A DNA stretch of 43,122 bases from a virus, in the IMG/VR virus record IMGVR_UViG_3300005577_000052, positions 1 to 43,122 of that record; one strand, 5' to 3'. The notes beneath the pieces were generated by a model, which was not told the origin of the DNA, did not search any database, and saw only the letters and a list, made by a program, of their open reading frames with translations. A program made the translations under genes and the position numbers. Of the stretch, positions 5,027 to 38,552 are shown piece by piece. Position 1 is the stretch's first letter. Each line of letters opens with the position of its first letter.

Positions 5027-6745
5027 ATGGCCGTAAAGACTAGGGAACAGCTCCAGGCCGAGGCCGCTCAGATCGCAAACGAGACGGGCAAGCGCCTCAA
5101 CACGGCCTTGCGTGTCGGCAACGCCATGCGCGACATCATCGACTCGGCGCCGTCCGTGCTCGATGTGACCGGCTTCGGAGCGCTTACGACCGCTTCCGGA
5201 GTGGACAACGACGTCGCCATTGCTGCTGCCATCGCCGCAGCCTCAGCGGTCGGAGCGGACCTCTATTGGCCAGCTGGTACGTTCACCAGTGCCGCCAGCA
5301 TTGCGAGCCTGCACAGCGTGAGGCACCGCGGTCCCGGCGCAATCCAGCGCGGCGCCGATGTGTTCTACGTCGAGCCCAAGTCCAGCAGCTCGAATACGCT
5401 CTATGTCGCCGCCACGGGTAGCGCCGCGAACGACGGGCTCTCTTCGGCGCAACCGATGCGCGGGTTCCAGAACGCGATCGATGCGCTGAAGAACTACGGC
5501 CCGACGCTGGAGGGGACTTGGACGGTCCAGTTTGCCGCCGGCACCTACAACACCACCGTCACCGATTACGGCACCACGAATCGCGGTATCCGCAGCCGGA
5601 ATCCGATCATCCTGAAGGGCGCGACTGTCGGCGGTTACCCCAATGTCCCGACCACCATAGTCGCCTACACGGGCGGAACGGCACAGGGTTGGGCTTTCGT
5701 GGACTTCATGAACGTGGACATCCGCGACGTGAAGTTTCAGGACTTCACGACCGGTCAGGCCGTACTCGTGGAATACGGGTCCCGCGTCAAGCTGACCAAC
5801 GTCCACGGGTTCAACAACCTGTACGCGCTCTATGCTGCGCTCGGCGTCAACGCCGAGGTGGTGAGTGGCGTTTTCGACGCCAACAGCTTGGGCTCTGGAA
5901 GCCACGGGCTCATCGCGCTGGATGAGTGCTTTCTCCAGGTCGGGGTCACCGGAGCTGTGCCAACTGGCGTGGTCTGCAAGAACGCCGGGCAAGGTGTCGG
6001 CATCTACGAGGCCAGCTCGGCGCATGTGAACGCGACGCTCCAGGACAATGCTTATGGCGCGCGCCTGGACTCGAGTGCGCGGTGCAACTTCGACACGGCT
6101 GACTTCAAGCGCAACACCACAGCGGCGATTCGGCTCGGCGGCAACAGCAACGGGCAGAGCGATACGTGCACGTTCAATACTGGCGGCGCTGACGCGAACA
6201 CGCGCAATATCGTGGCCGGTGGCGGAGGCGTGGATTCGACGGTCGATGAGAATACGACCACGCCGCGCGTGTACCTCGGAACTCAGAACCAGGTGACGCA
6301 CACCGGTACCACGACGGAGACCGTGGTCGGCTCGTTCGCAGCCTTTCCGGCCAAGCGTTTTCCGCACACCTTCAACGTCTCCAAGATGCTCGAGGCTCTC
6401 TGCTTCGGCACCTACTCTGGCGCGTCCGGGATTCGGACCTTTCGCGCTCGCCTGCATACCACGGCAAGCGGCGGCGCCACCGGCACGGTGCTAGCTGCGG
6501 CGGTCGTGTCGGGCTGTCCCACCGGCTCGTTCCGCTATGACTTGCGCTCAAGCTTCGGAACCACTTCGCAGCGCGCGAACCTGGCGATCTACAACGAGGT
6601 CAACGGGCAGCACGCGATGGGCCACAACGAGAACAGCGTCGCGACCAACGACGGCTCGGATTGGTACGTGCTCATCACGGTACAGCTAGGCAGCAGCGGG
6701 GACACCGTCGTTTTTAACCATCGGGAGATGCGCATTTCCGGATGA
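5027..6745 (+). CDS. tailspike-like protein with right-handed beta-helix
   Basis: This is a 572-residue protein from the ATG at 5027; a GTG at 5021 overlapping the upstream stop would add two residues. After an N-terminal helical adaptor-like part (1-45), the segment VLDVTGFGALTTASGVDND is the typical head of pectate-lyase-fold tailspikes (normally DV.dFGA..dG..DdT.A). Many short Asn/Gly/Val-rich coils follow (about 120-420, for example GVFDANSLGSGSHGLIAL), as in parallel beta-helices with depolymerase activity. The last 150 residues form a separate beta domain (residues about 430-572). It probably binds or cleaves a surface polysaccharide. Catalytic residues cannot be read from sequence alone. 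Confidence 0.75.
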   Translation: MAVKTREQLQAEAAQIANETGKRLNTALRVGNAMRDIIDSAPSVLDVTGFGALTTASGVDNDVAIAAAIAAASAVGADLYWPAGTFTSAASIASLHSVRHRGPGAIQRGADVFYVEPKSSSSNTLYVAATGSAANDGLSSAQPMRGFQNAIDALKNYGPTLEGTWTVQFAAGTYNTTVTDYGTTNRGIRSRNPIILKGATVGGYPNVPTTIVAYTGGTAQGWAFVDFMNVDIRDVKFQDFTTGQAVLVEYGSRVKLTNVHGFNNLYALYAALGVNAEVVSGVFDANSLGSGSHGLIALDECFLQVGVTGAVPTGVVCKNAGQGVGIYEASSAHVNATLQDNAYGARLDSSARCNFDTADFKRNTTAAIRLGGNSNGQSDTCTFNTGGADANTRNIVAGGGGVDSTVDENTTTPRVYLGTQNQVTHTGTTTETVVGSFAAFPAKRFPHTFNVSKMLEALCFGTYSGASGIRTFRARLHTTASGGATGTVLAAAVVSGCPTGSFRYDLRSSFGTTSQRANLAIYNEVNGQHAMGHNENSVATNDGSDWYVLITVQLGSSGDTVVFNHREMRISG

Positions 6746-11308: not shown

Positions 11309-12945
11309 TGGCCTACGGACTCATCACTGGCTATGAACCGCACCCGGAGATTCCGGGCGCGTACAATTTCATCACGCCCAGTGGTCCACTCACGTTCGGT
11401 GGGCCAGAAGCGGAGAACCTGAAGAAGCGCATTGATGCGTCCGACTCGGTCAACACGACGGCGGGGCCGGGCGGTGGGTTCGACCCGAAGCAGGCCGCGG
11501 CGGACTTGACCGGCGTGCCTCCAGGCGCCCAGCCGGGCCCGTTGCCGGCTTCGGCTCCCCAAGCCGCGCCCCCCCAGCAGCGCCCCCTCACGGTCAATGG
11601 CATCAACACCGGCTACGAGCAGGGCCCCGACGGGCGCCTCTATGAGCACGTGGCTGGAACGAAGGGCACCAGCAAGGCGGACCTGGAAAAGAAGGCTGGC
11701 CAGGGCACGGTTTTGCCGACTGCGCAGAGCCAAAGCGTGGCCGGCGGATTCGAGCGCGACCCGGAGTACGAGGCAAACAAGGCGCTGGCGCAGGATGTCG
11801 AGCGCGGTGGCATCGAGGACCAGCGTGCGGCGGACCTGAAAGCTGAGACCGCCGGGCGTGACGTCGCGCAGCAACAGTTCGTTGCTCAGACGGCACAGCT
11901 CGATGAGCAACAGAAGCTTGCCAATCACATCCAGGGCCAGGTCGACCAGCAGCAGGCAATTCGCGACCAGGCGCTGAAGGACTACACGTCCACCAAGATT
12001 GACCCAGAGCGCATCTACAGCGGCGGTCTCGGCGCGCTGAAGAAGTTCAAGAACGCCATCGCTGCGGCGGGCGGCGCGTGGGCAGCGACTATTGGTCACA
12101 CGCAGAACTACGCCCAGCAAATCATCGATAACGCGGTGAACCAGGACATTCACGCGCAAGAGGTCGACCTTCACACGAAGAAGGACAAGGCCGACAACGC
12201 GCTGGCGGACCTCACGCGGCGCGGCATGTCGCTCGACCAGGCTAAGGGTACACTGGCGAGCATTCAGCGCGAGTGGGCCAAGAACCAGATCGCTCTAGCT
12301 CGCGGCTCCAGCAATGACGAGGCCATCAATGCCAAGTACGACCAGCTGCTGGGGCGCTTCGACCAGCAGAACTTCGACGAGGCCGAGAAGTACCGACGCG
12401 ATGCGCTCGGAACCGCGACGAAGGCGACTCAGGCGCAGATTGTGTATCCCCAGGCGGGCACAGCTGGCGGCGTGCGCGCGGTCGCTCCGAGCAAGGCGCT
12501 TGGTATCGCCGGCACGACTGCTGGCACGGAGGGCACTGTTGCGAGCACGGCCGGCACCATCAAGAAGCTCAGCGAGGACGGCGCGGGTCAGGGCCAGTAC
12601 AAGGGACTCAGTGAGGCGCAGACCAAGAGCGTGGCTGAGCTTGACTCTGCGCTCGCTGGTCTCTCACGCATGCGCGAGCATGACCAGAAGTATGGCAATC
12701 CGATGATTTTCACCACCGGCACGCTTGGCAGCGAAAGCAGCCAGCGTCTCGGTGCAACCGCTAACGCTATCGGCCCGGTAGTGGCTCGCGCGACAGAAGG
12801 CGACGCGGCCACAAAGGACTCTATGGATCGCGCCATTGGCGGCTTGACCGCGATGGACCCCAAGCAACGTCAGGCAGCGTACGAGCAATACGCAGAGCAG
12901 CTTGAGGCCAAGAAGCGCGCAATTTTGGAGGGCGCAAAGAAGTGA
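11308..12945 (+). CDS. ejection-type (internal virion) protein, 545 residues
   Basis: The protein overlaps its upstream neighbour by one base (TGATG). The N-terminal 100 residues are Pro/Gly-rich (PPGAQPGPLPASAPQAAPP), and then come long Gln/Asp/Lys-rich helices (about 150-240 and 270-365, for example AQLDEQQKLANHIQGQVDQQ). A short hydrophobic patch, NAIAAAGGAWAATIGHT (about 245-261), could touch the membrane. The C-terminal part is Ala/Gly/Thr-rich. Together with the genes on both sides it forms a three-gene ejection set. I see no lytic transglycosylase signature. Assigned by composition and order. Confidence 0.6.
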   Translation: MAYGLITGYEPHPEIPGAYNFITPSGPLTFGGPEAENLKKRIDASDSVNTTAGPGGGFDPKQAAADLTGVPPGAQPGPLPASAPQAAPPQQRPLTVNGINTGYEQGPDGRLYEHVAGTKGTSKADLEKKAGQGTVLPTAQSQSVAGGFERDPEYEANKALAQDVERGGIEDQRAADLKAETAGRDVAQQQFVAQTAQLDEQQKLANHIQGQVDQQQAIRDQALKDYTSTKIDPERIYSGGLGALKKFKNAIAAAGGAWAATIGHTQNYAQQIIDNAVNQDIHAQEVDLHTKKDKADNALADLTRRGMSLDQAKGTLASIQREWAKNQIALARGSSNDEAINAKYDQLLGRFDQQNFDEAEKYRRDALGTATKATQAQIVYPQAGTAGGVRAVAPSKALGIAGTTAGTEGTVASTAGTIKKLSEDGAGQGQYKGLSEAQTKSVAELDSALAGLSRMREHDQKYGNPMIFTTGTLGSESSQRLGATANAIGPVVARATEGDAATKDSMDRAIGGLTAMDPKQRQAAYEQYAEQLEAKKRAILEGAKK

Positions 12946-21924: not shown

Positions 21925-22430
21925 TTGGTGGGCTTTCTGTCTTGGCAATTCTCAGCGTGAAACGGAGCGGTTTCGCAGCATGACTCGCCGGGCTTCCCAA
22001 GCGCTCCCCGACAGACGCCGATAATTCTGCGCAGCTCGTCAACTGCTGCGCTTTGTCTCTGCGTAACGGGCGGGCCTCGCGTGTCGTCAATCGTGACGAG
22101 CGCCGACATGGCCAACTCCAGCGCCGACTCGAGCCGTTCGAGCTTCTGTTCCGCACGCTTCGCTCGGTCGTGCACGTACACCGCTAGCGCCGTGCTTGGC
22201 CCGGCACGCAGCACTACGTCCATTCGCTCCTTCGCTTCAGCTAGCTCGCGCTCTGCAGCCTCGAGCCTCGCCTTCGCCTCCGATGCTGAGCGGGCGAGGG
22301 CTACCAGCCTGTCGTAGTCCGTGCCAAGCAAGCACCGCTGACCGGTCAGCGTGTCTGCGGGCGACTGCTCTTCAAGACGCTCCAGGAAGCGATCTAGCTC
22401 GTCTGGCGAGGGGTGGGAGGGGTAGGTCAT
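21921..22430 (-). CDS. coiled-coil early protein with Cys-rich tail
   Basis: The 169-residue protein starts at the ATG overlapping the previous stop (TGATG). Residues 45-120 form a long charged coiled coil (ARLEAAERELAEAKERMDV; RAKRAEQKLERLESALEL), and the tail has CRGALGKPGESCCE plus FHAENCQD. It could be a dimeric DNA- or protein-binding factor. No known family is recognised. Confidence 0.5.
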   Translation of the reverse strand: MTYPSHPSPDELDRFLERLEEQSPADTLTGQRCLLGTDYDRLVALARSASEAKARLEAAERELAEAKERMDVVLRAGPSTALAVYVHDRAKRAEQKLERLESALELAMSALVTIDDTRGPPVTQRQSAAVDELRRIIGVCRGALGKPGESCCETAPFHAENCQDRKPTK

Positions 22431-23608
22431 CAGCCCTCCTCGCCGGGTTCCCGCTCGGTCTCATCGCCCGCAATCGCATCTTCCGGTCCCGTCGCCAGCT
22501 GCTTTTCGAGCTTCGCAACTTGCCGGTCGCAGTGCATCCAGAGCTTGCCGATCTCCTGGCCCTGCGCAGGACTGATGTCGCCGCTTTCCTTGCCTGCCTG
22601 AGCCCGGGCCATCAGCTCTGACTGCACGGCCCTGGTCCCGAGGATGGCGCGCAAGGCCAGCGCCTTGTCGTAGCTATCACATCGAGCCAGCGCGTCCTTG
22701 ACCTTGTTCAGCTTGCGGGCGATCTCCTCGCCAACCGCGCCGCCGTCTCCGGGCGGTGAACCGTAGTCGCGGTCCGGCGCGGCGTGCGGAGAGATATTCG
22801 GCGCGTAGTCGTCATCTCGCTCGTCGCTGTCTTCAACGTCCTGGGTGAAGATTTCGGAAGCGCAGGTAGCAAAGAGAATGGCGGCCACGTGGGCGCGCTT
22901 GCAGGCCATCTTGCGCACGGTGTTGTAGTTGTCGGCCAGGTCCGGGTTCGGGACACGGCCCTCTTTTTGGGACAGAATGCGCTCGTCCTTCGCCGGGAAC
23001 GTCGCACCGCATCCGTCCTTTTTGCGCCAGCAGAACCACTCCGGCTTGTCCTTGCTCTTCAGCAAAGAGCCCTCTTTGCCGCAACTCGGGCACTTCCGGC
23101 CGCCGTTGCGCCAAGCGTATTTCTTCTCGCGCGTTGAGCACGAGCCGACAGCCGCCGTCACCTGGTTCCCGGTCGGGATATGGTTGAGAACGCACGTCAC
23201 GACGCTCTCCAGGTGCTCGCCGTCCCAACGGTCCTCGCATTTGAAGACGGGGCCGAGTTGGAAGGTGAGTCCGAGAATCTCGGCGCCAGGCTTGAGCAGG
23301 CAGTCCTTCTGCGTGCCCGGAACCTTCCCGTAGTGCACATCGAGCTTCATGATCCGCTTTTGGACCTCGCGGACCTTTTCGACGCGCGCCACCACCACGT
23401 CGACACTGACGCCCTGGTCATCGGTGGCCCGGGCAATCGCACGCGGTTTGTTTTCAACAACAGCAATCGCTTCTGACATCTTCCTAGTCCTCTTCAGCCG
23501 CTTCGGCGGCACCGGTACGGCATCAAGCCAGTCGTCGATATCGTCTCGTTTGCGCTGCTGCACTTCGGCGACGGAGGCCGCAAGCTGGCGCTCAAGTAGC
23601 GTCGGCAT
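22430..23608 (-). CDS. conserved phage protein of the HYGKVPGT/TVRKMACKRA type, with zinc insertion
   Basis: The 392-residue protein belongs to a widespread phage family recognisable by HYGKVPGTQKDCLLKPGAE (about 92-110), an NQVTAAVGSCSTREKKYAWR strand, and NTVRKMACKRAHVAAIL followed by SEIFTQDVED near 230-265. A zinc ribbon is inserted between them (CPSCGKEG...WFCWRKKDGCGA). Members are usually uncharacterised and sometimes sit beside recombination genes, so a role in ssDNA handling is possible but unproven. An internal ATG at 23479 (MSEAIAVV, AGGA site) is an alternative start, but the longer form avoids an empty 113-base gap in this dense operon. Confidence 0.65.
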   Translation of the reverse strand: MPTLLERQLAASVAEVQQRKRDDIDDWLDAVPVPPKRLKRTRKMSEAIAVVENKPRAIARATDDQGVSVDVVVARVEKVREVQKRIMKLDVHYGKVPGTQKDCLLKPGAEILGLTFQLGPVFKCEDRWDGEHLESVVTCVLNHIPTGNQVTAAVGSCSTREKKYAWRNGGRKCPSCGKEGSLLKSKDKPEWFCWRKKDGCGATFPAKDERILSQKEGRVPNPDLADNYNTVRKMACKRAHVAAILFATCASEIFTQDVEDSDERDDDYAPNISPHAAPDRDYGSPPGDGGAVGEEIARKLNKVKDALARCDSYDKALALRAILGTRAVQSELMARAQAGKESGDISPAQGQEIGKLWMHCDRQVAKLEKQLATGPEDAIAGDETEREPGEEG

Positions 23609-24772: not shown

Positions 24773-24966
24773 GTTCCGCTCGTGTCGGACATGAACAGGA
24801 TTTCGCTGTCCGCCTCATGGTCCGTGTTGAATGGCCCAGCCTCAATGCGCCCCTTGTCGTCGATGACGTAGAACTTGTCAGCTTGAACGGGTCGCCCTCG
24901 GCACTCGGTTGCTGCCAACTCAGAGCCGAGGGCAATCCAGTCCATGAAATGCTCATGGCGCCTCAC
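24769..24966 (-). CDS. small early protein, unknown
   Basis: This 65-residue protein starts at GTG 24966, whose last bases form the stop of the upstream gene (GTGA). It contains ADKFYVIDDKGRIEAGPF, a beta hairpin, and an acidic end (HEADSEILFMSDTSGT). The start shares GTGAGGCGCCA with the gene at 21058. Function unknown. Confidence 0.5.
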   Translation of the reverse strand: MRRHEHFMDWIALGSELAATECRGRPVQADKFYVIDDKGRIEAGPFNTDHEADSEILFMSDTSGT

Positions 24967-25175
24967 CGCGCACCGCCCTTCCGTCGCCGCTCGGGCAAAG
25001 CCTCCGCCGGGCACTTGCGCAGGCCGGCAGCTCGGGTGACGTGCGTGATGTCTTCGCCGGTCGTCTCGACCACGGGGATGCCGGGGAGGCTGGGCGTCTC
25101 TTCTTCTTCGAATTCAGCGTCGATGGTCGCGCAGAGGCGCAGTCGAACGCGGGTTGGGGTTAGTCGGGTCGCCAT
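24963..25175 (-). CDS. first gene of the leftward (PL) operon, unknown, probably leaderless
   Basis: This 70-residue protein starts at ATG 25175. A GTG at 25196 is in frame but lies inside the promoter spacer and would need transcription to begin upstream. With the -10 hexamer at 25189-25184, transcription should begin within about two bases of the ATG, so this mRNA would be leaderless. The protein is Arg-rich at both ends with an acidic middle (RVRLRLCATIDAEFEEEETP), no motif recognised. First genes of such operons are often host-takeover or antitermination proteins, but nothing here proves that. Confidence 0.6.
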   Translation of the reverse strand: MATRLTPTRVRLRLCATIDAEFEEEETPSLPGIPVVETTGEDITHVTRAAGLRKCPAEALPERRRKGGAR

Positions 25176-25183
25176 GTCCACCC

Positions 25184-25212
25184 AATCTACTGTCACAAGA
25201 CAGTGCTGTCAA
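25184..25212 (-). promoter_or_regulatory. leftward early promoter PL with operator in spacer
   Basis: On the minus strand, TTGACA (25212-25207) is followed by exactly 17 bases and TAGATT (25189-25184). The ATG of the first gene begins eight bases after the -10. The spacer and the end of the -35 carry GACAG-N2-CTGTC-N4-GACAG, the same half-site order and spacing as in the rightward promoter. A bound repressor would cover both hexamers. Confidence 0.75.
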
Positions 25213-25233
25213 GGGACAATCGTCATGGTACAC

Positions 25234-25262
25234 AAAAGCCACGGCCCGTCGCCCGTGGTTTT
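25234..25262 (-). terminator. hairpin terminator of the repressor gene
   Basis: The hairpin CCACGG - 8-base loop - CCGTGG (25239-25244 with 25253-25258) is flanked by AAAA and TTTT, so it can work in both directions. On the minus strand it lies 6-30 bases after the repressor stop at 25268 and ends in a CTTTT run. It would keep the repressor transcript out of the PL operon. Confidence 0.7.
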
Positions 25263-25267
25263 ACCTA

Positions 25268-25615
25268 CTATCCGGGCCGGTACGACGTGCGGCGCTGCGA
25301 GCTCGGCGCGGTCTCCGCGACGTTCGCCGGGCGCTGCAGGCCAGACGGTTCCTCGCCGAGTAGCAGCCAGGCTGGGCGCACACCGAGCGCGCGAGCCAGC
25401 ATGATGACCGTGTTGGCGGTCACTCCGACCACTTTATCGCCAGACATGTACTTACTGAAATTGCCGCTATCGACCCCTGCTGATGCGGCGATCTCGTTCT
25501 GTGAGAGACCGGGTCTCTCCGCAATTCGTTCGTTCACCGCGTAGCGCAGTCGTCCAGGAAACCCCCGCCACTCTGGTGCAACTGCGCGAGAGGAATCGTT
25601 CTTTCGCGCTGCCAT
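25268..25615 (-). CDS. XRE-family repressor (CI-like)
   Basis: This 115-residue protein has an XRE helix-turn-helix: GLSQNEIAASAGVDSGNFSK (about residues 36-55) followed by YMSGDKVVGVTANTVIMLAR and ALGVRPAWLLLGE. It lacks the S24 peptidase domain of LexA-cleavable repressors; after residue 90 the tail is short and disordered. Its recognition helix shares GNFSK with the Cro-like protein at 25708, so both probably read the same GACAG/CTGTC operators. It ends just before the hairpin terminator at 25234-25262. A weak promoter may lie at 25676-25649. As it cannot be cleaved like LambdaCI, induction must use another route. Confidence 0.8.
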   Translation of the reverse strand: MAARKNDSSRAVAPEWRGFPGRLRYAVNERIAERPGLSQNEIAASAGVDSGNFSKYMSGDKVVGVTANTVIMLARALGVRPAWLLLGEEPSGLQRPANVAETAPSSQRRTSYRPG

Positions 25616-25648
25616 GCCGATGATGGTGCCTAACTGCTGACGATTGAC

Positions 25649-25676
25649 AACATAGACAGCCGGAGTCTCTTGACAG
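25649..25676 (-). promoter_or_regulatory. possible repressor promoter (PRM-like)
   Basis: On the minus strand CTGTCA (25676-25671), 16 bases, then TATGTT (25654-25649), 33 bases upstream of the repressor ATG. Each hexamer matches the sigma70 consensus at four positions. The -35 overlaps the outermost half-site of the rightward operator, and an extra GACAG half-site lies at 25655-25659. Weak candidate. Confidence 0.35.
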
Positions 25677-25698
25677 TGCTGTCACAAGACAGTAATAC
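25670..25698 (+). promoter_or_regulatory. rightward promoter PR with operator in spacer
   Basis: TTGACA (25670-25675), a 17-base spacer (25676-25692) and TAATAC (25693-25698). The ATG of the Cro-like gene starts nine bases later, so the mRNA should be leaderless. The operator 25672-25692 reads GACAG-N2-CTGTC-N4-GACAG, as in PL and in the same orientation relative to transcription. The spacers differ outside the half-sites, which argues for selection on the half-sites. Confidence 0.75.
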
Positions 25699-25707
25699 TG
25701 GGGTGCG

Positions 25708-25944
25708 ATGAATCGAGGAGCACAGCACCTGGCCGCTCGCGTAGAGGAGTGGGTGGCGGAAGATCCGAAGGGCCGGTCCCAGAATGCGGCGGCAGCCCTT
25801 GTCGAATGCGACACCGGCAATTTCAGCAAGATTCTGAAGGGCGACGGGCGCTCGCCGGGGCGAGCTTTGGCGATTCGAATCAAGGAGCACTTCGGGACGG
25901 AGCCTCAGTGGTTCGATGAGCCAGCAGAGGAGCCCGCCGCGTGA
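25708..25944 (+). CDS. Cro-like XRE protein
   Basis: The 78-residue protein carries one helix-turn-helix: GRSQNAAAALVECDTGNFSK (about 22-41), then ILKGDGRSPGRALAIRIKE. The turn and recognition helix closely match those of the opposing repressor (DSGNFSK against DTGNFSK). It is the first rightward gene, directly behind PR with no room for a ribosome-binding site, so the start codon is at or near the mRNA 5' end. The divergent arrangement of a longer leftward and a shorter rightward XRE gene is the classic lysis/lysogeny switch. Confidence 0.75.
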   Translation: MNRGAQHLAARVEEWVAEDPKGRSQNAAAALVECDTGNFSKILKGDGRSPGRALAIRIKEHFGTEPQWFDEPAEEPAA

Positions 25945-29886: not shown

Positions 29887-30656
29887 GCTGGGCGAAGCTC
29901 GATGACCGTGCCAACGAGCACCAGAAGCAGCTCCTGGCTGGCCCCGAGGCGTGCTGGTTGTGGGCCTGCGGCTTGATGTACGCGAACCGGCAGGCAGCTC
30001 GAGACGGCTTCATCCCGTCGCTCGTGCTGCCGATGCTCTACCCGTTCAAGAGTCCCAAGCGTCTCGCCGAGCGCCTGGTCGAGGTCGGGCTGTGGGACGC
30101 GACAGACAACGGGTACGTGGTCCACAACTTCACCAAGTGGAACAAGACGCAGGAACAGGTACAGGCCGAACGAGACGCCACCCGTAACAGGGTTCGAGAC
30201 TACCGAGCGCGCAACGCTACCGGTAACGCCGTTACACCACCGGATGTAACAGACCCCTGTAACGCTCCTGTACCGGATCCACTCCACTCCACTCCGCTAC
30301 CAATCCAGGAGAGATCCGAGAGGGGCGAATCTGCGGCTGGCGCCGCCGGCCCAAAGAAACCACGGCGGGTATCCCGGGTGCCTGAGGCATGGGAACCTAA
30401 GCCCGAACACGTGAACCTGGCCATGCAGCTCGGGGCGGATTTAACCGCTGAGTTGGCGAAGTTCCGGGACCACGAGTTCAGAAACCCGAAGTCCGATTTC
30501 GATGCCTGTTTCCGGACCTGGCTCCGGCGAAGCATCGAACTGCGCCGGCAAGCGATTGGGCAACGGCTGACCGAAGGGCGCGCCGCGGATGCGCTGGAAA
30601 AGCAGGTGGCTCGAGCCAATGCGCTGCGAGTTTTGGAGCGAAAGGCACTGCCATGA
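29883..30656 (+). CDS. replisome organiser/initiator (O-like)
   Basis: The 257-residue protein has a two-domain initiator layout. The N-terminal winged-helix part (1-95) ends with GYVVHNFTKWNKTQEQVQA, a hallmark of phage replisome organisers. A Pro/Thr-rich linker (about 110-160) follows. The C-terminal helical domain (170-240) has FRNPKSDFDACFRTWLRRS, like helicase-binding ends. The linker DNA carries five GTAAC/GTTAC repeats (30184-30263), as in Lambda where iterons lie inside O. The next gene looks like the helicase loader. Confidence 0.75.
   Translation: MSWAKLDDRANEHQKQLLAGPEACWLWACGLMYANRQAARDGFIPSLVLPMLYPFKSPKRLAERLVEVGLWDATDNGYVVHNFTKWNKTQEQVQAERDATRNRVRDYRARNATGNAVTPPDVTDPCNAPVPDPLHSTPLPIQERSERGESAAGAAGPKKPRRVSRVPEAWEPKPEHVNLAMQLGADLTAELAKFRDHEFRNPKSDFDACFRTWLRRSIELRRQAIGQRLTEGRAADALEKQVARANALRVLERKALP
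30184..30263. other. ori: candidate origin of replication: GTAAC repeats in the initiator linker
   Basis: GTAAC occurs at 30184-30188, 30223-30227, 30246-30250 and 30259-30263, and its reverse complement at 30231-30235: five copies in 80 bases. In a GC-rich genome that is dense. The repeats lie in the linker of the O-like initiator gene, the position of Lambda's iterons. No clearly AT-rich unwinding element is seen right after them. Confidence 0.45.
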
Positions 30657-31219: not shown

Positions 31220-33640
31220 ATGAAAATCAGCTGCACCATGATTGTCCGGGACGAGGCGAGCACGCTCCGAGCCTGCCTGGAAAGCATCAAACCGCACGTC
31301 GATGAGCTGGTGATTGTCGACACGGGCAGCACCGATTCGACGCCCGAAATCGCGCGAGAGTTCGCCGATCGCTTCGAAGTTTGGACCGGCTGCAACGATT
31401 CGGAAGGGCGCATCGCGGACTTCTCGGCCGCCCGAAACTATGCGCTCGAGCTCGCAACCGGTGACGCCGTGTGCTGGTTTGATGGCGACGACGTGGTCCG
31501 AGGCGCTGAGAACCTGCGCCGGCTGGCTCAGGAATCGTCCGGCGAGGCTTGGGCATGGCTGGCCCCGTACGAGTACGAACGCGACGCACAGGGCCGCGTG
31601 GTGACGCTGCAGTGGCGCGAGCGGCTGGTCTATCCGCGAACCGGCTGGGAGTGGCGTAGCCCGGTGCATGAGGGCCTCTTGGGCAAGGCCGGGACGTCGC
31701 CGGCGTACCAGCAGACCGATGCGTTGGTCGTCGAGCACCAGCTGCACCGCTCGAGCAAGCCGCGCGACCCGCAACGGAACCTGCGCATCTTGGAGGGCCA
31801 CGTGCGCAAGGTCGGCGAGACGGACGCGCGCTCGCTGCACTACTTGGGCGCCGAGTTGATGTTCAACGGCCGGGTCGGTGAGGCCTGCTACTGGTTCCGC
31901 CGACACACACAGCTCAGCGGCTGGAGCGACGAGCGCTGCCTGAGTCTGCTGCATCTGGCCCGCATCACGCTGGCGATGGGCGACTGGCAGGCGAGCATCG
32001 ATTGGGCGCTACAGGCCGTTGCAACGAAGAGCTGGCCGGAGCCGTACTGGCTGATGGGGCAGGCCTGCTGCATGATGGCCGAGGCGGGCATCGAGCCGGA
32101 GTACAACTACCGCCGCGGTGCACACATGCTGCAGCAGGGCTTTGCGTGCGACAAGCCGGAGCTGGGCGGCTCGCTGTTGATGAAAGACCCCACGGCGCGC
32201 ATCGAGGCGCACCGATGGCTCGCTCCGGCGCTGGCCAAGCTAGGCCGAGTGGACCAAGCCATCGAGTCAGCGCAGACCGGTCTGGCAGGCAATGCCAAGG
32301 CCGAGGAGCTGCGGCATCTGCTGGGCCTACTGAAGCGCGAGAAGGTCCTGGCGCAAGTGGCCGAGCTCGACCAGCTGGGCGCGCTGCCGCAACACGCGGG
32401 CGTCGTCATCGCGGCAACCCTGAAGGGTGAGTTTAAGGTCGAGCGGGAGCGCTCCAAGGTCGAGCGTCATACGCGGGAATACTCGCCTGGCGACCGTGAA
32501 TGGCGAGAGGTGAAGAACGCGCACCCGCTGTTCCTTGGGGACCGCTCCGTGCGCCTCCGCATCGCCTTCTACCTCGGCCATCAGCTCGAGCCGTGGACGC
32601 CCGAGACGCTTGAAGCGAACGGCATGGGCGGTTCAGAGACGATGGCGTGGGAGATGAGTAAGCGGCTGGCGAAGCTCGGTCATGCGGTGACGGTCTTTGG
32701 TCACTGCAGCATGCTCAGCAAGGTTCAGGTATTCGACGGGGTCGCTTGGACAGACTCCAGTCGCTTTCCTAGCGATGTGCCATACGACGTCCTCATCGTC
32801 TCGCGCCAACACTGGGCGGTCGAGCTGCCGCATATCGCCAAGACGCGCGTCCTTTGGGTGCATGACGTCCATGTCGGTCCCGAGTTCACACCGGCCATCG
32901 CGGCGAAGTACGACCTCGTGTGGTGCCTGTCGAATTGGCACCGTGAGTTCTTTCTGCAGACCTATCCGTGGCTGCCGCCCGGCAAAGTGGAGGTGACGCG
33001 CAATGGAATCGACCCCGCTCGTTTTGGTCGCACTGACGTACCTCGCAATCCTCACCGGGCTATTTATTCGAGCAGTCCTGACCGTGGTCTGGAAGAGGCG
33101 GTCAAGGCGTGGCCAGCCGTGCGCAAGGCGGTACCCGATGCCGAGCTGCACGTGTATTACGGGTTCGAGAATTGGGAACGCTCCCTCGAGCTTAACGGTG
33201 ATAACGGGCATCCGAACTGCTCGCGGGCTGCGCTTACTCGGCTGAAGGGGCTCGTTGCGGAGACGCCCGGCATCGTCATGCACGGTCGCGTCAACCAGCG
33301 CGAGCTGGCCGATGCAATGCTAGGCGCCGGCGTCTGGTTCTATCCGACCTGGTTCAGCGAGACGAGCTGCATCACGGCCATGGAGGCGCAGGCAGCGGGG
33401 TTGTGGTGCGTGTGCCCGTATCGAGCTGCGCTGGCCGAGACGGTCCCAGACAGCGCTCGATGTTGGGACGTCGAAGGAGACCCCGTGAAGGCGGTACTGT
33501 GGGCAATTCGACTGGCGCGAAAGAGCACCGTGCATGAGCCATGCAACGTGTCCCTCGACGCTCTCGCCGCCGACTGGGACAAGCGCCTCCGTAAGCTCGT
33601 AGACGACGTGGTGCCAGCATTCTCGGAGGCGGCGCAGTGA
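31220..33640 (+). CDS. bifunctional glycosyltransferase (GT2 + GT4-like)
   Basis: The 806-residue protein is a fusion. Residues 1-110 are GT2: ISCTMIVRDEASTLRACLES opens the fold, DTGSTDST binds the nucleotide, and DGDD (88-91) is the metal site. Residues 170-430 are helical repeats, TPR-like. Residues about 446-800 are a GT4-like domain with NGMGGSETMAWEMSKRL (nucleotide loop), SSPDRGL and the EX7E pair Glu714/Glu722. It starts behind CAGGAAAT. The C-terminal half resembles the single GT at 34739, suggesting shared ancestry. Such fusions build or modify surface glycans or glycosylate proteins; the acceptor is unknown. Confidence 0.8.
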   Translation: MKISCTMIVRDEASTLRACLESIKPHVDELVIVDTGSTDSTPEIAREFADRFEVWTGCNDSEGRIADFSAARNYALELATGDAVCWFDGDDVVRGAENLRRLAQESSGEAWAWLAPYEYERDAQGRVVTLQWRERLVYPRTGWEWRSPVHEGLLGKAGTSPAYQQTDALVVEHQLHRSSKPRDPQRNLRILEGHVRKVGETDARSLHYLGAELMFNGRVGEACYWFRRHTQLSGWSDERCLSLLHLARITLAMGDWQASIDWALQAVATKSWPEPYWLMGQACCMMAEAGIEPEYNYRRGAHMLQQGFACDKPELGGSLLMKDPTARIEAHRWLAPALAKLGRVDQAIESAQTGLAGNAKAEELRHLLGLLKREKVLAQVAELDQLGALPQHAGVVIAATLKGEFKVERERSKVERHTREYSPGDREWREVKNAHPLFLGDRSVRLRIAFYLGHQLEPWTPETLEANGMGGSETMAWEMSKRLAKLGHAVTVFGHCSMLSKVQVFDGVAWTDSSRFPSDVPYDVLIVSRQHWAVELPHIAKTRVLWVHDVHVGPEFTPAIAAKYDLVWCLSNWHREFFLQTYPWLPPGKVEVTRNGIDPARFGRTDVPRNPHRAIYSSSPDRGLEEAVKAWPAVRKAVPDAELHVYYGFENWERSLELNGDNGHPNCSRAALTRLKGLVAETPGIVMHGRVNQRELADAMLGAGVWFYPTWFSETSCITAMEAQAAGLWCVCPYRAALAETVPDSARCWDVEGDPVKAVLWAIRLARKSTVHEPCNVSLDALAADWDKRLRKLVDDVVPAFSEAAQ

Positions 33641-34308
33641 AGCTCAACCTCTGCTGCGGCACGAACCTCTTTCCCGGCTGGCTCAACATCGACCAGAGCG
33701 ACGTGGAGCAGGACTACCTGCGGCACTTGCGAGACGCGCCGGAAGGATTCGTCTGGCCGCCTGAGCAACAGCGACTGGCTGATGCGGTGAAGGCTGGTCA
33801 GCTCGACTTTCGCCGGCACGATGTGCGCCATGGCCTGCCGTTCCCGGATGGCTCGGTCGAGGCCATCTACGTTGGGCAGGCTATCGAGCACTTCAACAGG
33901 CGGACCGAGGCGCCGCGGTTTCTGAAGGAGTGCTGCCGCGTGCTGCGGCAGTACGGGGTCATCAAACTGACCACGCCGGACCTTGGAAAGCTGGCGCTTG
34001 CTTACTATGACTCGACGGAACGCGGTGGCGGCGGACTGGGCGAGTTTACGGGGGAGCAGCCTGCTTTCTATGCCAGCGCCGAGCCGGCGGACCAGCTCGC
34101 GTATCTGCTCTTTGGCGCCTCGGGTGAAAACAGCACGAACGAGAACTACGAGGGGCACCACCACTGCTACACGAGCCGTTCGCTCGGGACGCTGCTGGAG
34201 GAATGCGGCTTCCAGGTCCGGTTCACGGATAACGTCGAGTTCCGTGACTGCATCGACAAGGGCATGTCGCACAGCTTCGCCATCGAGGCGGTGAAAGCCT
34301 TAGGATGA
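33637..34308 (+). CDS. SAM-dependent methyltransferase
   Basis: This 223-residue protein is read from GTG 33637. It opens with LNLCCGTNLFPGWLNID, a class I motif I/II pattern. FPDGSVEAIYVGQAIEHF and RVLRQYGVIKLTTPDL are the next two core strands. These are Methyltransf_11-like and common in sugar clusters. The substrate is unknown. It is coupled on both sides to sugar genes, so it probably methylates a sugar or the glycan end. Confidence 0.75.
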   Translation: MKLNLCCGTNLFPGWLNIDQSDVEQDYLRHLRDAPEGFVWPPEQQRLADAVKAGQLDFRRHDVRHGLPFPDGSVEAIYVGQAIEHFNRRTEAPRFLKECCRVLRQYGVIKLTTPDLGKLALAYYDSTERGGGGLGEFTGEQPAFYASAEPADQLAYLLFGASGENSTNENYEGHHHCYTSRSLGTLLEECGFQVRFTDNVEFRDCIDKGMSHSFAIEAVKALG

Positions 34309-34742
34309 AAATGAAGCGCTTTTGGTCAAAGGTAGACACGTCTGGGGAATGTTGGAATTGGACCGCATCCACCGACCATGACGGCTATGGCTACTTCGCC
34401 ATTGGCCTAAAGACCGCGAAGTCGCACAGGGTTTCCTGGGAGATTTCCAATGGGCCAATCCCGGCAGGGATGCATGTTCTTCACAAGTGCGACAACCCAA
34501 GGTGCGTCCGCCCATCCCATCTCTTCCTGGGCACCAACTCCGATAACATGTCGGACAAGGTCACCAAGAGGCGACAGGCGCGCGGCGTGCGACATGGACA
34601 CGCTGCGCTGAATGTCATCGACGTTTGGCTCATGCGGAAGGCCTGTGAATTATTGCCGGTATCGCAGCGGCAAGTAGCCAGAACCTGGGGCGTTGACCAG
34701 AAAACCGTGAACAATCTTGTGCGCGGAAAGTCTTATCAATGA
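34305..34742 (+). CDS. HNH homing endonuclease
   Basis: This 145-residue protein is read from ATG 34305 (ATGA overlap). It has the HNH_3 layout: ECWNWTASTDHDGYGYFAIG, then LHKCDNPRCVRPSHLFLGTN (about 59-79) with the metal Cys/His. A C-terminal helix-turn-helix, SQRQVARTWGVDQKTVNNLV (about 118-137), completes the typical homing endonuclease. It is less GC-rich than its neighbours and splits the sugar genes, so it is probably a mobile insertion. No intron or intein boundary is visible. Confidence 0.8.
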   Translation: MKMKRFWSKVDTSGECWNWTASTDHDGYGYFAIGLKTAKSHRVSWEISNGPIPAGMHVLHKCDNPRCVRPSHLFLGTNSDNMSDKVTKRRQARGVRHGHAALNVIDVWLMRKACELLPVSQRQVARTWGVDQKTVNNLVRGKSYQ

Positions 34743-35797
34743 GAATCGCCGTCACCTACGGCCCGATGTGCCTGCTCCGGTCTGCCGAGGAGACCTGGGA
34801 CGATCCGCGCACGGGCAGTGAGATTGGCTGGAGGCGGATTGTCGAGGGATTGAGGGCGCGTGGGCATCAGGTTGTAAGCAACCCGTCGGAGCCACCCACC
34901 TACTACATCGCCTCTCAGCTGTTCGATGCCGTGATTTCCATCAACGAACCGGACTCGCTCAGGCCGTGGCGCTCGAAGCTCCGAATCTGCATGTTTTGGC
35001 TGAACGAGTTTTCGTTCTGCAAGGAAGGATTTGACGAGCATGTCGACTGGTATTTCTCGCCGTCTGAGGCGCACCGGCAAAAGGCAATCGGAGACTGGGG
35101 AGCGCCGCGTCCCGAAAAGTGGCGGACCAACCTCCTCGGGTGTGACGAACGCGGAGCTGTGGGCCGAGCTGTATCGCGCATATCTGGAAGAGCCGTTTAT
35201 TGCTCATCCCCTGACAGGGGGCTCCACCGGGTCCTTGAGCAGTGGCCGTCAATCATTCGCTCTGCACCTCACGCGACGCTCAAAATCTTCTACCGGCTCG
35301 AACCCTGGCTCCGCGGATTCGACACCACGCCGTACTACCCGCCGATCGAACGCAACCGCACGCGCGCGCTCTACATCGAAGAAGCGCTGAAGCGGATGAG
35401 TGGCCCGGAATGGGGCATCACGGTGGTGGACAGCATCCCGCGTGACCAGTTGCAGCTCGAGCTCGCGCAGGCCGAGGTGTTTCTGCATCCGTGCGAAACG
35501 CTTTCGTGGAGCGAGGGCTTCAGTTGCAGTACAATGGAGGCGTGCGCTGCTGGAGCGGCGCCCATCATCACTGATTGCGACGCGCTTGGAGAAGTTTACG
35601 CGCCGCTCGACCCGGTCAAGACAGGCGACTGGGTCGGGTGGCGGGAACGCGTCATTAGGGCGCTAAAAGACGGCGAATTCCGGGAAGATTTGAGCAAGCG
35701 GGCACAGCGGCTCGCATCGGAGCATTCATGGGAAGCACACGTATCGAGATTGCACGAGTTCCTGATGACGCATTCGTCAACGATGCGGGCTGGATAG
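34739..35797 (+). CDS. GT4-like glycosyltransferase
   Basis: The 352-residue protein has the GT4 C-terminal fold: RAVYCSSPDRGLHRVL (about 151-166), VVDSIPRDQLQLELAQA, and the EX7E pair in SEGFSCSTMEACAAGAAP. The N-terminal half has an INEP..RP loop and a W-N-E-F stretch in place of the common glycine-rich opening. It looks like a shorter relative of the C-terminal half of the protein at 31220. The acceptor is unknown. The 3' end overlaps the next gene by 70 bases. Confidence 0.75.
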   Translation: MRIAVTYGPMCLLRSAEETWDDPRTGSEIGWRRIVEGLRARGHQVVSNPSEPPTYYIASQLFDAVISINEPDSLRPWRSKLRICMFWLNEFSFCKEGFDEHVDWYFSPSEAHRQKAIGDWGAPRPEKWRTNLLGCDERGAVGRAVSRISGRAVYCSSPDRGLHRVLEQWPSIIRSAPHATLKIFYRLEPWLRGFDTTPYYPPIERNRTRALYIEEALKRMSGPEWGITVVDSIPRDQLQLELAQAEVFLHPCETLSWSEGFSCSTMEACAAGAAPIITDCDALGEVYAPLDPVKTGDWVGWRERVIRALKDGEFREDLSKRAQRLASEHSWEAHVSRLHEFLMTHSSTMRAG

Positions 35798-36114
35798 CCA
35801 ACATCGGCTTCGGCGAGTTCCGATGCGTCGGGCTCATCTTCAGCAAGGCCGGCTCGTGGCGCTCCAAGCACTTCCACAAGACTGATGCGCACGTGCTCTA
35901 CGTGCTGAGCGGCGAGATGCACTACTGGGAACGCGACCTCGATGGCGAGTACGCGGCCGAGCCGGTCATCCTCAAGGCGAGCGAGCAGTACTACACGGGC
36001 CCGCTGCTCGTGCACAAGACGTTCTTCCCGGTCGACACGGTGCTCATCAGCATGAGCAAGAACCCGCGCGACCATGTTTCACATGAAACGGATGTGGTGC
36101 GCATCGATGGTTGA
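35728..36114 (+). CDS. cupin-fold sugar-modifying protein
   Basis: This 128-residue protein is read from ATG 35728 behind GGAG, overlapping the GT gene by 70 bases in another frame. SKHFHKTDAHVLYVLSGEMH (about 46-65) is a cupin motif with metal-binding His; a second strand set follows with HKTFFPVDTVLISMSK. Small cupins in deoxysugar clusters are often ketoisomerases or epimerases, which fits the dehydratase-like gene nearby. It could also be a regulatory cupin. Confidence 0.65.
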   Translation: MGSTRIEIARVPDDAFVNDAGWIANIGFGEFRCVGLIFSKAGSWRSKHFHKTDAHVLYVLSGEMHYWERDLDGEYAAEPVILKASEQYYTGPLLVHKTFFPVDTVLISMSKNPRDHVSHETDVVRIDG

Positions 36115-36130
36115 AGGGAGCAATGGGCGA

Positions 36131-36310
36131 ATGAGAACCGAGACCCAGCTTGTGCTTTTGGTGGCATTCCTGGCATCGCTCTGGGCCGTCTACGGTCTGC
36201 GCAGTGGTGCCGATAACGGCGAGTTTGGTAACACCAGCGTACGGTGCGTTAAGCTCAACGGTAACTGGCACGAGCCGCATGGCATCAGTCCAGGGTGGTG
36301 CGGTAAGTGA
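36131..36310 (+). CDS. small single-pass membrane protein
   Basis: The 59-residue protein is read from ATG 36131 with GAAGGGAGC upstream; an in-frame ATG at 36107 is possible. TQLVLLVAFLASLWAVYGL is a single hydrophobic segment, and the rest is polar with two Cys (CVKLNGNWHEPHGISPGWCG). It could anchor the sugar machinery or exclude other phages. The stop overlaps the next start (GTGA). Confidence 0.5.
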   Translation: MRTETQLVLLVAFLASLWAVYGLRSGADNGEFGNTSVRCVKLNGNWHEPHGISPGWCGK

Positions 36311-37611
36311 ACAACCATATCGGCCTTGACTACACCGAGCGCACGACTTGCCGGCTCTGTGACAGCTCGAACCTGTCGCCTGTGCTGGACTTGGGCGAGA
36401 CGCCGCTGGCGAACGAGCTCGGCTTGCGGGAGCAGCGTGGTACCTGTCGCAAATGCGGAGGCCCCGTTGGCCTGAGACAGACCTACTATGACGGCACGGA
36501 TAGCCTCATTTGCGTGACATGTGGACTCAGGTACGGGGCGGAACATGAGCCACCGCTGCCGACTCAACCCCAGGAGCTGTTCCCGCTCGTGGTAAACCGG
36601 TGCGGCAACTGCGAGCACCATCAGCTCAGCATCGCAGTGAAGCCGGAGCGGCTGTGGGGCCCGAGCTACCCGTACCAAAGCGGCACGTCACCGGTGTTCC
36701 GGAGGCATCTGGAGGCGCTGGCCGATGAGGTCGCGGCGCTAAAGCCGGGCGGCCGCGTGCTGGAGATTGCGAGCAATGATGGGACTCTGGTCAAGATGCT
36801 TGGAGAGCGTGGCGTGGTGGCCATGGGTGTCGACCCGAGTGGCCCGGACGATGATGCGCGAATGCTCTGGTCGCTGACTTGGCCGCCGCCCAGCAGAGAC
36901 TGGTATGGGTCGATAGGCTTCGACTGCATCATCGCCCTGAACGTGTTTGCCCACGTGGACGACCTGCACAGCTTCACCGCGGCCGTAAAGGAAGCGCTTG
37001 CTCCGGACGGCGTGTTCATCGTCGAGGTGGGCTACCTGGACAGCGTCGTAGCCAATGGGCACTTCGACACCATCTACCACGAGCACATGAGTTACCACTC
37101 GCTCAACCCGCTGGTGAGGTTCTTCGCGCGACATGGTCTGTACGCACACAACGTCAAAGGTAGCAAGTCGCAGGGTGGCTCTATACGGCTGTACCTGATG
37201 CACGAGCGCCTTCCGTTCGGCAGCGTCGGTAATGAGCACGAGCCGGACATTTCCAGGCTAGAGGCTCTCGCTACGGCGCGCGCGGCAGCTCTTCTGGTTG
37301 CTTTTGGCAAGCTCCAGAAGCGCGGCGAAAAGGTCGCCATCTACGGCTGCCCCGCCAAACTCACGACGCTGCTCTACGCGACCGGGCTGCAGTCGTTCCC
37401 GTTCGACTGTGTCGGCGACGACAACCCGCGCAAGGTTGGCCGTACGACGCCAGGCAACCACATCCCGATCGTGTCGGTGACGGAGATGCTGGAGCGGCGA
37501 CCGGACACCATCGTTGTCGCGGCCTGGAACTTCTTCGACGACATCCGGGACAAGCTGAGGCGGCTCGGGTTCAGTGGCGTAATCATCAACCCGATGGGGA
37601 GAGTCGAATGA
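36307..37611 (+). CDS. sugar C-methyltransferase with an extra zinc ribbon
   Basis: The 434-residue protein matches NovU/TylC3-type C-methyltransferases: CRLCDSSNLSPVLDLGETPL (Cys15, Cys18) and CGNC (Cys99, Cys102) form the usual zinc site. RVLEIASNDGTLVKMLGERG is the SAM motif, the HxxHxSY-like YHEHMSYHSL is the catalytic loop, and KVAIYGCPAKLTTLLY opens the C-terminal domain. Between residues 40 and 92 an additional ribbon (Cys47/50 and Cys69/72) is inserted that family members normally lack. Substrate is probably an NDP-4-keto-6-deoxysugar made by the next enzymes. Confidence 0.8.
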   Translation: MNNHIGLDYTERTTCRLCDSSNLSPVLDLGETPLANELGLREQRGTCRKCGGPVGLRQTYYDGTDSLICVTCGLRYGAEHEPPLPTQPQELFPLVVNRCGNCEHHQLSIAVKPERLWGPSYPYQSGTSPVFRRHLEALADEVAALKPGGRVLEIASNDGTLVKMLGERGVVAMGVDPSGPDDDARMLWSLTWPPPSRDWYGSIGFDCIIALNVFAHVDDLHSFTAAVKEALAPDGVFIVEVGYLDSVVANGHFDTIYHEHMSYHSLNPLVRFFARHGLYAHNVKGSKSQGGSIRLYLMHERLPFGSVGNEHEPDISRLEALATARAAALLVAFGKLQKRGEKVAIYGCPAKLTTLLYATGLQSFPFDCVGDDNPRKVGRTTPGNHIPIVSVTEMLERRPDTIVVAAWNFFDDIRDKLRRLGFSGVIINPMGRVE

Positions 37612-38552
37612 AGCGCGTGCTCGTAACCGGCGGCGCTGGATTTATCGGTCGGCACTTCGTTCGCTACCTGCTGGCCAACACGGACTGGCACATCAGCGTG
37701 CTGGACCGACTCGGCGAAGGCAGCGAGCTGACCCAGCTGTGGCGTGAGAACTCGTCCCGGCTCGACTTCATTTGGCACGACCTGCGCGCGCCCATGAAGG
37801 TGAACAACCCGCTCCGGTACCGCTACATCGTGCACATGGCGGCCGGCTCGCACGTGGACCGGAGCATCAAGGACCCAATGGGGTTCGTCGCGGACAACGT
37901 GACCGGCACGGCCAACCTGCTCGAGTTCGCACGGCACGTGGATGGCTTGGAAAAGCTGCTGCACTTCAGCACCGACGAGGTGTTCGGCGCGGCGAACGGA
38001 AAGGCGTTCGATGAGTACGACTCGTTCTACCCGACCAACCCTTACTCGGCTTCAAAAGCTGCGGCCGAAGCGCTCTGCCCGGCTTGGGCGAACACTTTCG
38101 GGCTGCCCATCGTCGTTACTCGCTGCACAAATGTGGCCGGTCCAGGCCAGGATGGCGAGAAGTTCATCCCGTCTACCATCGCCAAAGTGGGACGTGGAGA
38201 GGTGGTCCAGATCCATTCGCGCAACGGTGCCGCCTCCTCCAGAAAGTATATCGATGTTGAGGACGTGTGTTCCGCCGTTCATCAAGTTCTCATTCGGGGA
38301 GGAGTCATCGCCGGTCGAGGCACCGGCTACTACAACATCGCCGGAGAAACCGACTACTCCAACGTCGACGTAGCGGCGCGCATTGCCGAGCTGATGGGCA
38401 AGCGGCTCGAGTGGGAGCTGGTCGAGGACCCGCCGAACCGGCCGCGCCCGGACTTGCGGTACGACCTGAACAACTCGCGCCTGAAGAACCTTGGCTGGGA
38501 GCAGCGCATCAGCCTCGACACCACGCTGCGGAGGATTCTGCAATGCGACTAG
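37608..38552 (+). CDS. NAD-dependent epimerase/dehydratase (NDP-sugar)
   Basis: The 314-residue protein is an extended SDR: GGAGFIG (8-14) binds NAD, HMAAGSHVDRS follows, STDEVFG gives the active-site Thr-Asp-Glu, and NPYSASKAAAEAL holds Tyr-x3-Lys. ProArg-rich substrate loops (NRPRPDLRYDLNNSRLKNLGW) close it, as in 4,6-dehydratases and related epimerases. The Thr-Asp-Glu triad favours a dTDP-glucose 4,6-dehydratase-like reaction. It is ATGA-coupled to the methyltransferase. Confidence 0.85.
   Translation: MKRVLVTGGAGFIGRHFVRYLLANTDWHISVLDRLGEGSELTQLWRENSSRLDFIWHDLRAPMKVNNPLRYRYIVHMAAGSHVDRSIKDPMGFVADNVTGTANLLEFARHVDGLEKLLHFSTDEVFGAANGKAFDEYDSFYPTNPYSASKAAAEALCPAWANTFGLPIVVTRCTNVAGPGQDGEKFIPSTIAKVGRGEVVQIHSRNGAASSRKYIDVEDVCSAVHQVLIRGGVIAGRGTGYYNIAGETDYSNVDVAARIAELMGKRLEWELVEDPPNRPRPDLRYDLNNSRLKNLGWEQRISLDTTLRRILQCD

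Follow-up and report, generated by a model that had tools for sequence, protein, structure and literature searches.

A compact 30-bp unit of two tandem dyads at both early promoters of a probable lambda-like phage immunity region

Two early promoters that point away from a repressor gene and carry the same set of half-sites raise the question of which protein reads them, and in how many copies it binds. We have analysed such a locus in the IMG/VR virus record IMGVR_UViG_3300005577_000052, and the window referred to below spans the whole record, 43,122 bases. The terminase, the SU10-like capsid and adaptor proteins and the tyrosine integrase encoded in the window indicate a temperate phage or a prophage. 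The genes at the locus are ordered as a left operon read leftwards from PL with its operator OL, the repressor gene, the operator OR with PR, and a cro-like gene read rightwards (Table 1). We consider it likely that this is a lambda-like immunity region of a temperate phage, with a 30-bp unit of two dyads at both early promoters, two repressor dimers on each unit, and leaderless early mRNAs.

Promoters and operator unit

The coordinates and sequences of PL and PR, re-read from the record, are those of the initial annotation. In a consensus scan they are the only sigma-70-like matches in 4.5 kb, where 0.6 would be expected. A spacer of exactly 17 bases had been claimed for both, and this is clear for PL. 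For PR the scan prefers a spacing of 18 (AATACT, 4/6) over 17 (TAATAC, 3/6), but a comparison of six promoters from three lineages favours 17, position 2 of the -10 then being an A in all of them.

The pattern GACAG-N2-CTGTC-N4-GACAG is found exactly at both promoters, in the same register and in the same orientation to transcription, as had been described, with no further exact copy among the 43,122 bases of the record. The count of three half-sites was however too low. Upstream of each -35 lies a fourth one, TTGTC at PL and GAGTC at PR; this outermost half-site is the weakest, as seen in GAGTC at PR. The full unit, YTGTC-N4-GACAG-N2-CTGTC-N4-GACAG, is 30 bp long and consists of two tandem 14-bp dyads of the form YTGTC-N4-GACAG, with a gap of 2 bp between them and 16 bp from centre to centre. 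It covers the -35 and the -35/-10 spacer of each early promoter, on either side of the XRE repressor gene, and the GACAG of one half-site is itself part of the -35 (TTGACAG).

Table 1. Features of the switch, with positions in the window
Feature	Position	Strand	Description
First PL gene, 70 aa, function unknown	24963..25175	-	Open frame; ATG at 25175, 37 nt after TTGACA start
PL promoter	25184..25212	-	TTGACA, 17-nt spacer GCACTGTCTTGTGACAG, -10 TAGATT; consensus scan; layout kept in L079 and L010
OL unit	25190..25219		Dyads CTGTCACAAGACAG (25190-25203) and CTGTCAAGGGACAA (25206-25219), gap TG; 19/20 match
XRE-type repressor (CI-like), 115 aa	25268..25615	-	HTH about residues 30-90; PHROG transcriptional regulator/repressor families, E 2e-11 to 5e-10
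Possible third, weak dyad (tentative OR3)	25637..25650		CTGACGATTGACAA, 8/10; over candidate repressor-promoter -35 TTGTCA, minus strand
OR unit	25663..25692		Dyads GAGTCTCTTGACAG (25663-25676) and CTGTCACAAGACAG (25679-25692), gap TG; 18/20 match
PR promoter	25670..25698	+	TTGACA, 17-nt spacer GTGCTGTCACAAGACAG, -10 TAATAC (or 18, AATACT)
Cro-like XRE protein, 78 aa, first PR gene	25708..25944	+	phrog_2328 transcriptional repressor, E 4.5e-5; ATG 38 nt after TTGACA start

Read on the plus strand, both sites hold CTGTC-ACAA-GACAG as well as GACAG-TG-CTGTC. As the TG and ACAA bases are identical at PL and PR, one unit is an inverted copy of the other relative to transcription. The other spacer bases had been reported to differ, which holds when each promoter is read along its transcription but not on the plus strand, where they are the same. 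Inverted copies could have been created by a single duplication, and one might ask if the units are just chance matches or a plain promoter duplication without operator function. We regard this as extremely improbable, since 200 first-order shuffles of the window never reached the unit score (the best was 16/20, and the mean number of sites scoring at least 17 was 0), and in the other two lineages (L079 and L010, see below) the N bases have diverged and the half-sites have been kept.

The half-sites also have a likeness to the core of the E. coli SOS box, CTGT...ACAG, and a host regulator such as LexA could be imagined to bind them instead of a phage repressor. The spacing is however N6 here and not N8, and in three lineages it is the repressor gene of the phage itself that lies between the sites, so that this explanation has next to no probability. 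The E. coli-type LexA box CTGT-N8-ACAG has one match in the record, at 30090, and none in the switch, and host LexA was rejected.

The operators of phage 434 are 14-bp dyads with an A/T-rich centre that is not contacted. The N4 between half-sites 3 and 4, in the dyad that lies between the -35 and the -10, is A/T in 19 of 24 bases over the six sites of the three lineages, compared to a background of 36%. By analogy this would fit a centre of the 434 type, although a high A/T content may in any case be usual in spacers that precede a -10.

Conservation in related phages

Contig L079 came up in a scan for TGTC-N4-GACA-N4-TGTC-N4-GACA; it has two units 788 bp apart, scoring 18/20 each, in the same places as in the window. 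The two are syntenic, with 56% identity for the repressor, 46% for Cro and 55% for the left-arm gene, and with an integrase-like frame to the right in the same order. A contig pair from a distant phage, L010/L018, has two units 893 bp apart, scoring 19/20 each, which flank one XRE gene, and a second XRE gene adjoins the other promoter. The XRE proteins of L010 are 24% and 18% identical to the repressor of the window; they are barely like it despite the same operator, and the pairing of protein and operator there is thus read from the gene order.

The comparison comprises six promoters and sites from the only three lineages found (the window, L079 and L010/L018). TTGACA is invariant in all six promoters, half-site 2, GACAG, is invariant in all six sites, and a pyrimidine followed by a purine (TG, CA or CG) forms the central dinucleotide throughout. 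Between the window and L079, the half-site positions agree in 19/20 and 17/20 cases, against 4/10 and 5/10 for the other positions. The half-sites, TTGACA and the A at position 2 of the -10 are retained in the six promoters, where other bases vary; the half-site that forms the -35 would of course be conserved for promoter function anyway. The related phages L079 and L010/L018 keep the half-sites at the same spacing, and not the promoters alone, and the proposal that PL and PR are the early promoters of a phage switch with one common operator is supported. From the sequences it is a sound inference that one repressor must read both sites. The comparison of the three lineages shows which operator bases matter, and it names an exact operator together with two candidate reader proteins.

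An exact-triplet scan of viral contigs gave 49 stretches, which is about the estimated chance level, most of them without a second unit nearby. Three contigs (L004, L029 and L043) have TTGACAG with all three half-sites, and in L004 and L043, which come from an unrelated phage, the match falls inside a tail-protein-like gene, at its end, so these candidates were rejected. Among bacterial genomes scanned for TTGACAG plus the triplet there were 18 matches and no paired unit, and a further promoter-anchored scan yielded no additional paired unit. Homology searches with the repressor and Cro returned only L080/L102, which is the same contig as L079, plus a CI in L003 for which the match was confined to the tail. 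Tandem 32-bp repeats that contain the half-site triplet, two copies 32 bp apart, were seen in L019 (1208-1260) and L046 (3152-3204).

A weak third dyad might correspond to a site for autoregulation. The one in the window overlaps TTGTCA 35 nt before the repressor ATG, and in L010 another, TTGTCGAACGGCAG (12373-12386), covers a TTGTCG that precedes the repressor ATG by 36 nt; L079 has no such dyad. As the two dyads are each near chance alone, and L079 is without one, an OR3-like role is only suggested.

Reader proteins and working of the switch

The model of the repressor has a mean pLDDT of 71, mostly 78-89 in the HTH part and under 50 for residues 90-110. It is a five-helix HTH domain (helices 19-33, 39-45, 50-58, 67-77 and 81-86) with the XRE fold, and it matches SinR (Z 12.4), P22 c2 (Z 10.8) and C.AhdI (Z 10.4), and also 434 Cro; with Foldseek the matches have E about 0.01 and probability 1.00. 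No C-terminal protease or oligomerisation domain was detected in the 115 aa, where only HTH families match. Since none was detected beyond the HTH, self-cleavage driven by RecA as in lambda CI is not to be expected, and the repressor is probably induced in some other way than by RecA-stimulated self-cleavage.

The model of the Cro-like protein is of low confidence (pLDDT 51). Its HTH has 39% identity to that of the repressor over 66 aa, with the recognition-helix core GNFSK common to the two in the window, and QN..A...[DN][STG]GN[FLW][ST]K is common to the repressor and Cro HTHs in both the window and L079. With a common HTH, both proteins probably read the half-site. Another explanation is that only the repressor uses the sites, and that the Cro-like protein reads something else or works by protein contact. 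There are precedents, as TP901-1 MOR acts through the repressor (PMC7250872) and PY54 Cro binds a single site (PMC4488713), but the core GN[FLW][ST]K, common to repressor and Cro in the window and L079, speaks for a common site, and we give the repressor-only explanation perhaps one chance in a few.

How the half-sites pair with each other is the second part of the question. The initial annotation assumed three half-sites, read by a dimer plus an extra half-site. This reading is not supported, as all six sites in the three lineages have four half-sites, and two dimers on two dyads leave no remainder. One can still parse the unit differently, with one dimer on GACAG-N2-CTGTC, taken as a central dyad, and an additional subunit on an extra half-site. 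The central dyad is perfect in four of the six sites, with at most one mismatch in the others, and the constant pyrimidine-purine step at its centre points in the same direction, but one central half-site doubles as the -35, so this perfection does not discriminate. The central parse also leaves two orphan half-sites in each of the six conserved sites. Its half-site centres are 7 bp apart; reasoning from known operators, the 9 bp of CTGTC-N4-GACAG would suit a lambda-type dimer better, and the weak third matches in L010 and the window are of the N4 type. Composite operators made of a dimer site with flanking half-sites have been proposed for TP901-1 on good evidence (PMC7250872), and for that reason the central parse keeps a low probability; we think it unlikely.

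With two dyads per unit, two repressor dimers would probably occupy each unit in the lysogen, likely in a cooperative manner. Lying over the -35 and the spacer, they would block RNA polymerase and keep PL and PR shut. Going by the helical repeat, dimers whose centres are 16 bp apart would lie on roughly opposite sides of the helix. In the lytic phase the Cro-like protein, whose recognition helix is very similar, would probably compete for the half-sites or supplement the repressor on them, and in this way dampen PL and PR or the expression of the repressor. With its packed dyads fused to the -35, this compact operator lends itself to the question of how 30 bp can accommodate two XRE dimers.

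A more far-reaching and rather improbable idea is that the unit of four half-sites is a common landing strip, where the repressor and the Cro-like protein would sit either in a mixed complex or as a pair of homodimers placed on opposite sides of the helix. With the -35 being a half-site and the recognition helices being near-identical, the operator and the promoter would be unable to drift apart, and one unit would set the immunity specificity in very different phages.

In all six promoters of the window, L079 and L010 the distance from the first base of TTGACA to an ATG is 36-38 nt. The start codon then falls at about +1 to +3, which would make the early mRNAs leaderless or near-leaderless. 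Judged from the promoter positions, the mRNAs of the left operon and of the Cro-like gene are thus probably leaderless or nearly so, and this predicted start of both early transcripts is directly testable.

Comparison with known systems and surroundings of the switch

The locus has much in common with lambda, 434 and P22. A repressor gene lies between two outward early promoters with related operators, next to a divergent cro-like gene, and the products of both genes have a helix-turn-helix. On both sides of the repressor gene the early promoters have the same operator, and this is so in L079 and L010 as well. The XRE fold matches P22 c2 and 434, and the dyads have the size of the 434 operators. 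Lambda-type operators have about three sites, some 22-24 bp apart, while there are two contiguous dyads 16 bp apart here, and instead of three spaced OR sites there is only the weak third candidate at 25637-25650. The position of one half-site within the -35, the repressor of 115 aa without a detected C-terminal domain for self-cleavage and oligomerisation, and the early mRNAs predicted to be leaderless at PL and PR also set this switch apart. It is a compact variant of the lambda-type twin-promoter switch and not a new kind of system.

The arrangement had been called unusual for XRE repressors, which is partly right, but closely packed dyads with adjacent XRE dimers are known in the controller proteins of restriction-modification systems (PMC3758141, PMC4041747). 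OL and OR of C.Esp1396I are two adjacent XRE dyads in a 35-bp operator that two dimers bind cooperatively, and the second dimer is believed to profit from the distortion of the DNA that the first one causes (PMC3758141, PMC4041747). By analogy, the geometry here may be described as resembling that of the C-protein operators: two adjacent dyads fall within about 35 bp (the unit is 30 bp), C.Esp1396I contacts GAC/GTC, and C.AhdI is among the closest folds to the repressor model. The C-boxes are however GACT-N3-AGTC with a TATA centre, where we find GTC-N4-GAC in YTGTC-N4-GACAG dyads, and in contrast to the C-protein systems the locus here is a phage switch that includes a Cro partner and has its units at two separate places.

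The CI/MOR switch of TP901-1 likewise has a small DNA-binding partner adjoining the repressor gene, and a composite operator with extra half-sites that overlaps the lytic promoter (PMC7250872), but its extra (OM) sites differ in sequence from the CI site, whereas all half-sites are the same here. The immB region of the telomere phages PY54 and N15 has the lambda-like order, and the cI and cro mRNAs of PY54 have been found to be leaderless in experiments (PMC4488713). PY54 differs in having a single 16-bp Cro operator upstream of cI, as compared to near-identical units of four half-sites at PL and PR.

Among named phages, none with a close homologue of the repressor or of Cro was found, and family searches gave no match for the 70-aa product of the first PL gene. 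The locus provides a switch at the sequence level for uncultured temperate phages of a group that has hardly any named relatives. The left-arm gene at 22430-23608 belongs to phrog_10048 (unknown function), and its product has 52% identity over 42% of its length to a protein of Myxococcus phage Mx4. Given this likeness, the host may be a myxobacterium-like organism. Although Mx4 shares a gene of this type, 22.6 kb of Mx4 contain no such unit. Contig L082, which is related through the same gene, has an 18-bp perfect palindrome, CAGCTAAAGCTTTAGCTG, over the PL spacer and -10, and a similar site at PR (5980-6160, 6610-6660). L082 thus has a different switch, so the compact unit is not universal among these phages and is probably one of several solutions, and a different switch beside a conserved left-arm gene suggests that immunity modules probably are swapped among them. 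Further to the right in the window, at 31220-38552, there is a cluster of glycosyltransferases (one of them with two domains and 806 aa), two methyltransferases and a GDP-mannose dehydratase-like epimerase, which possibly is cargo of the phage for modification of surface sugars.
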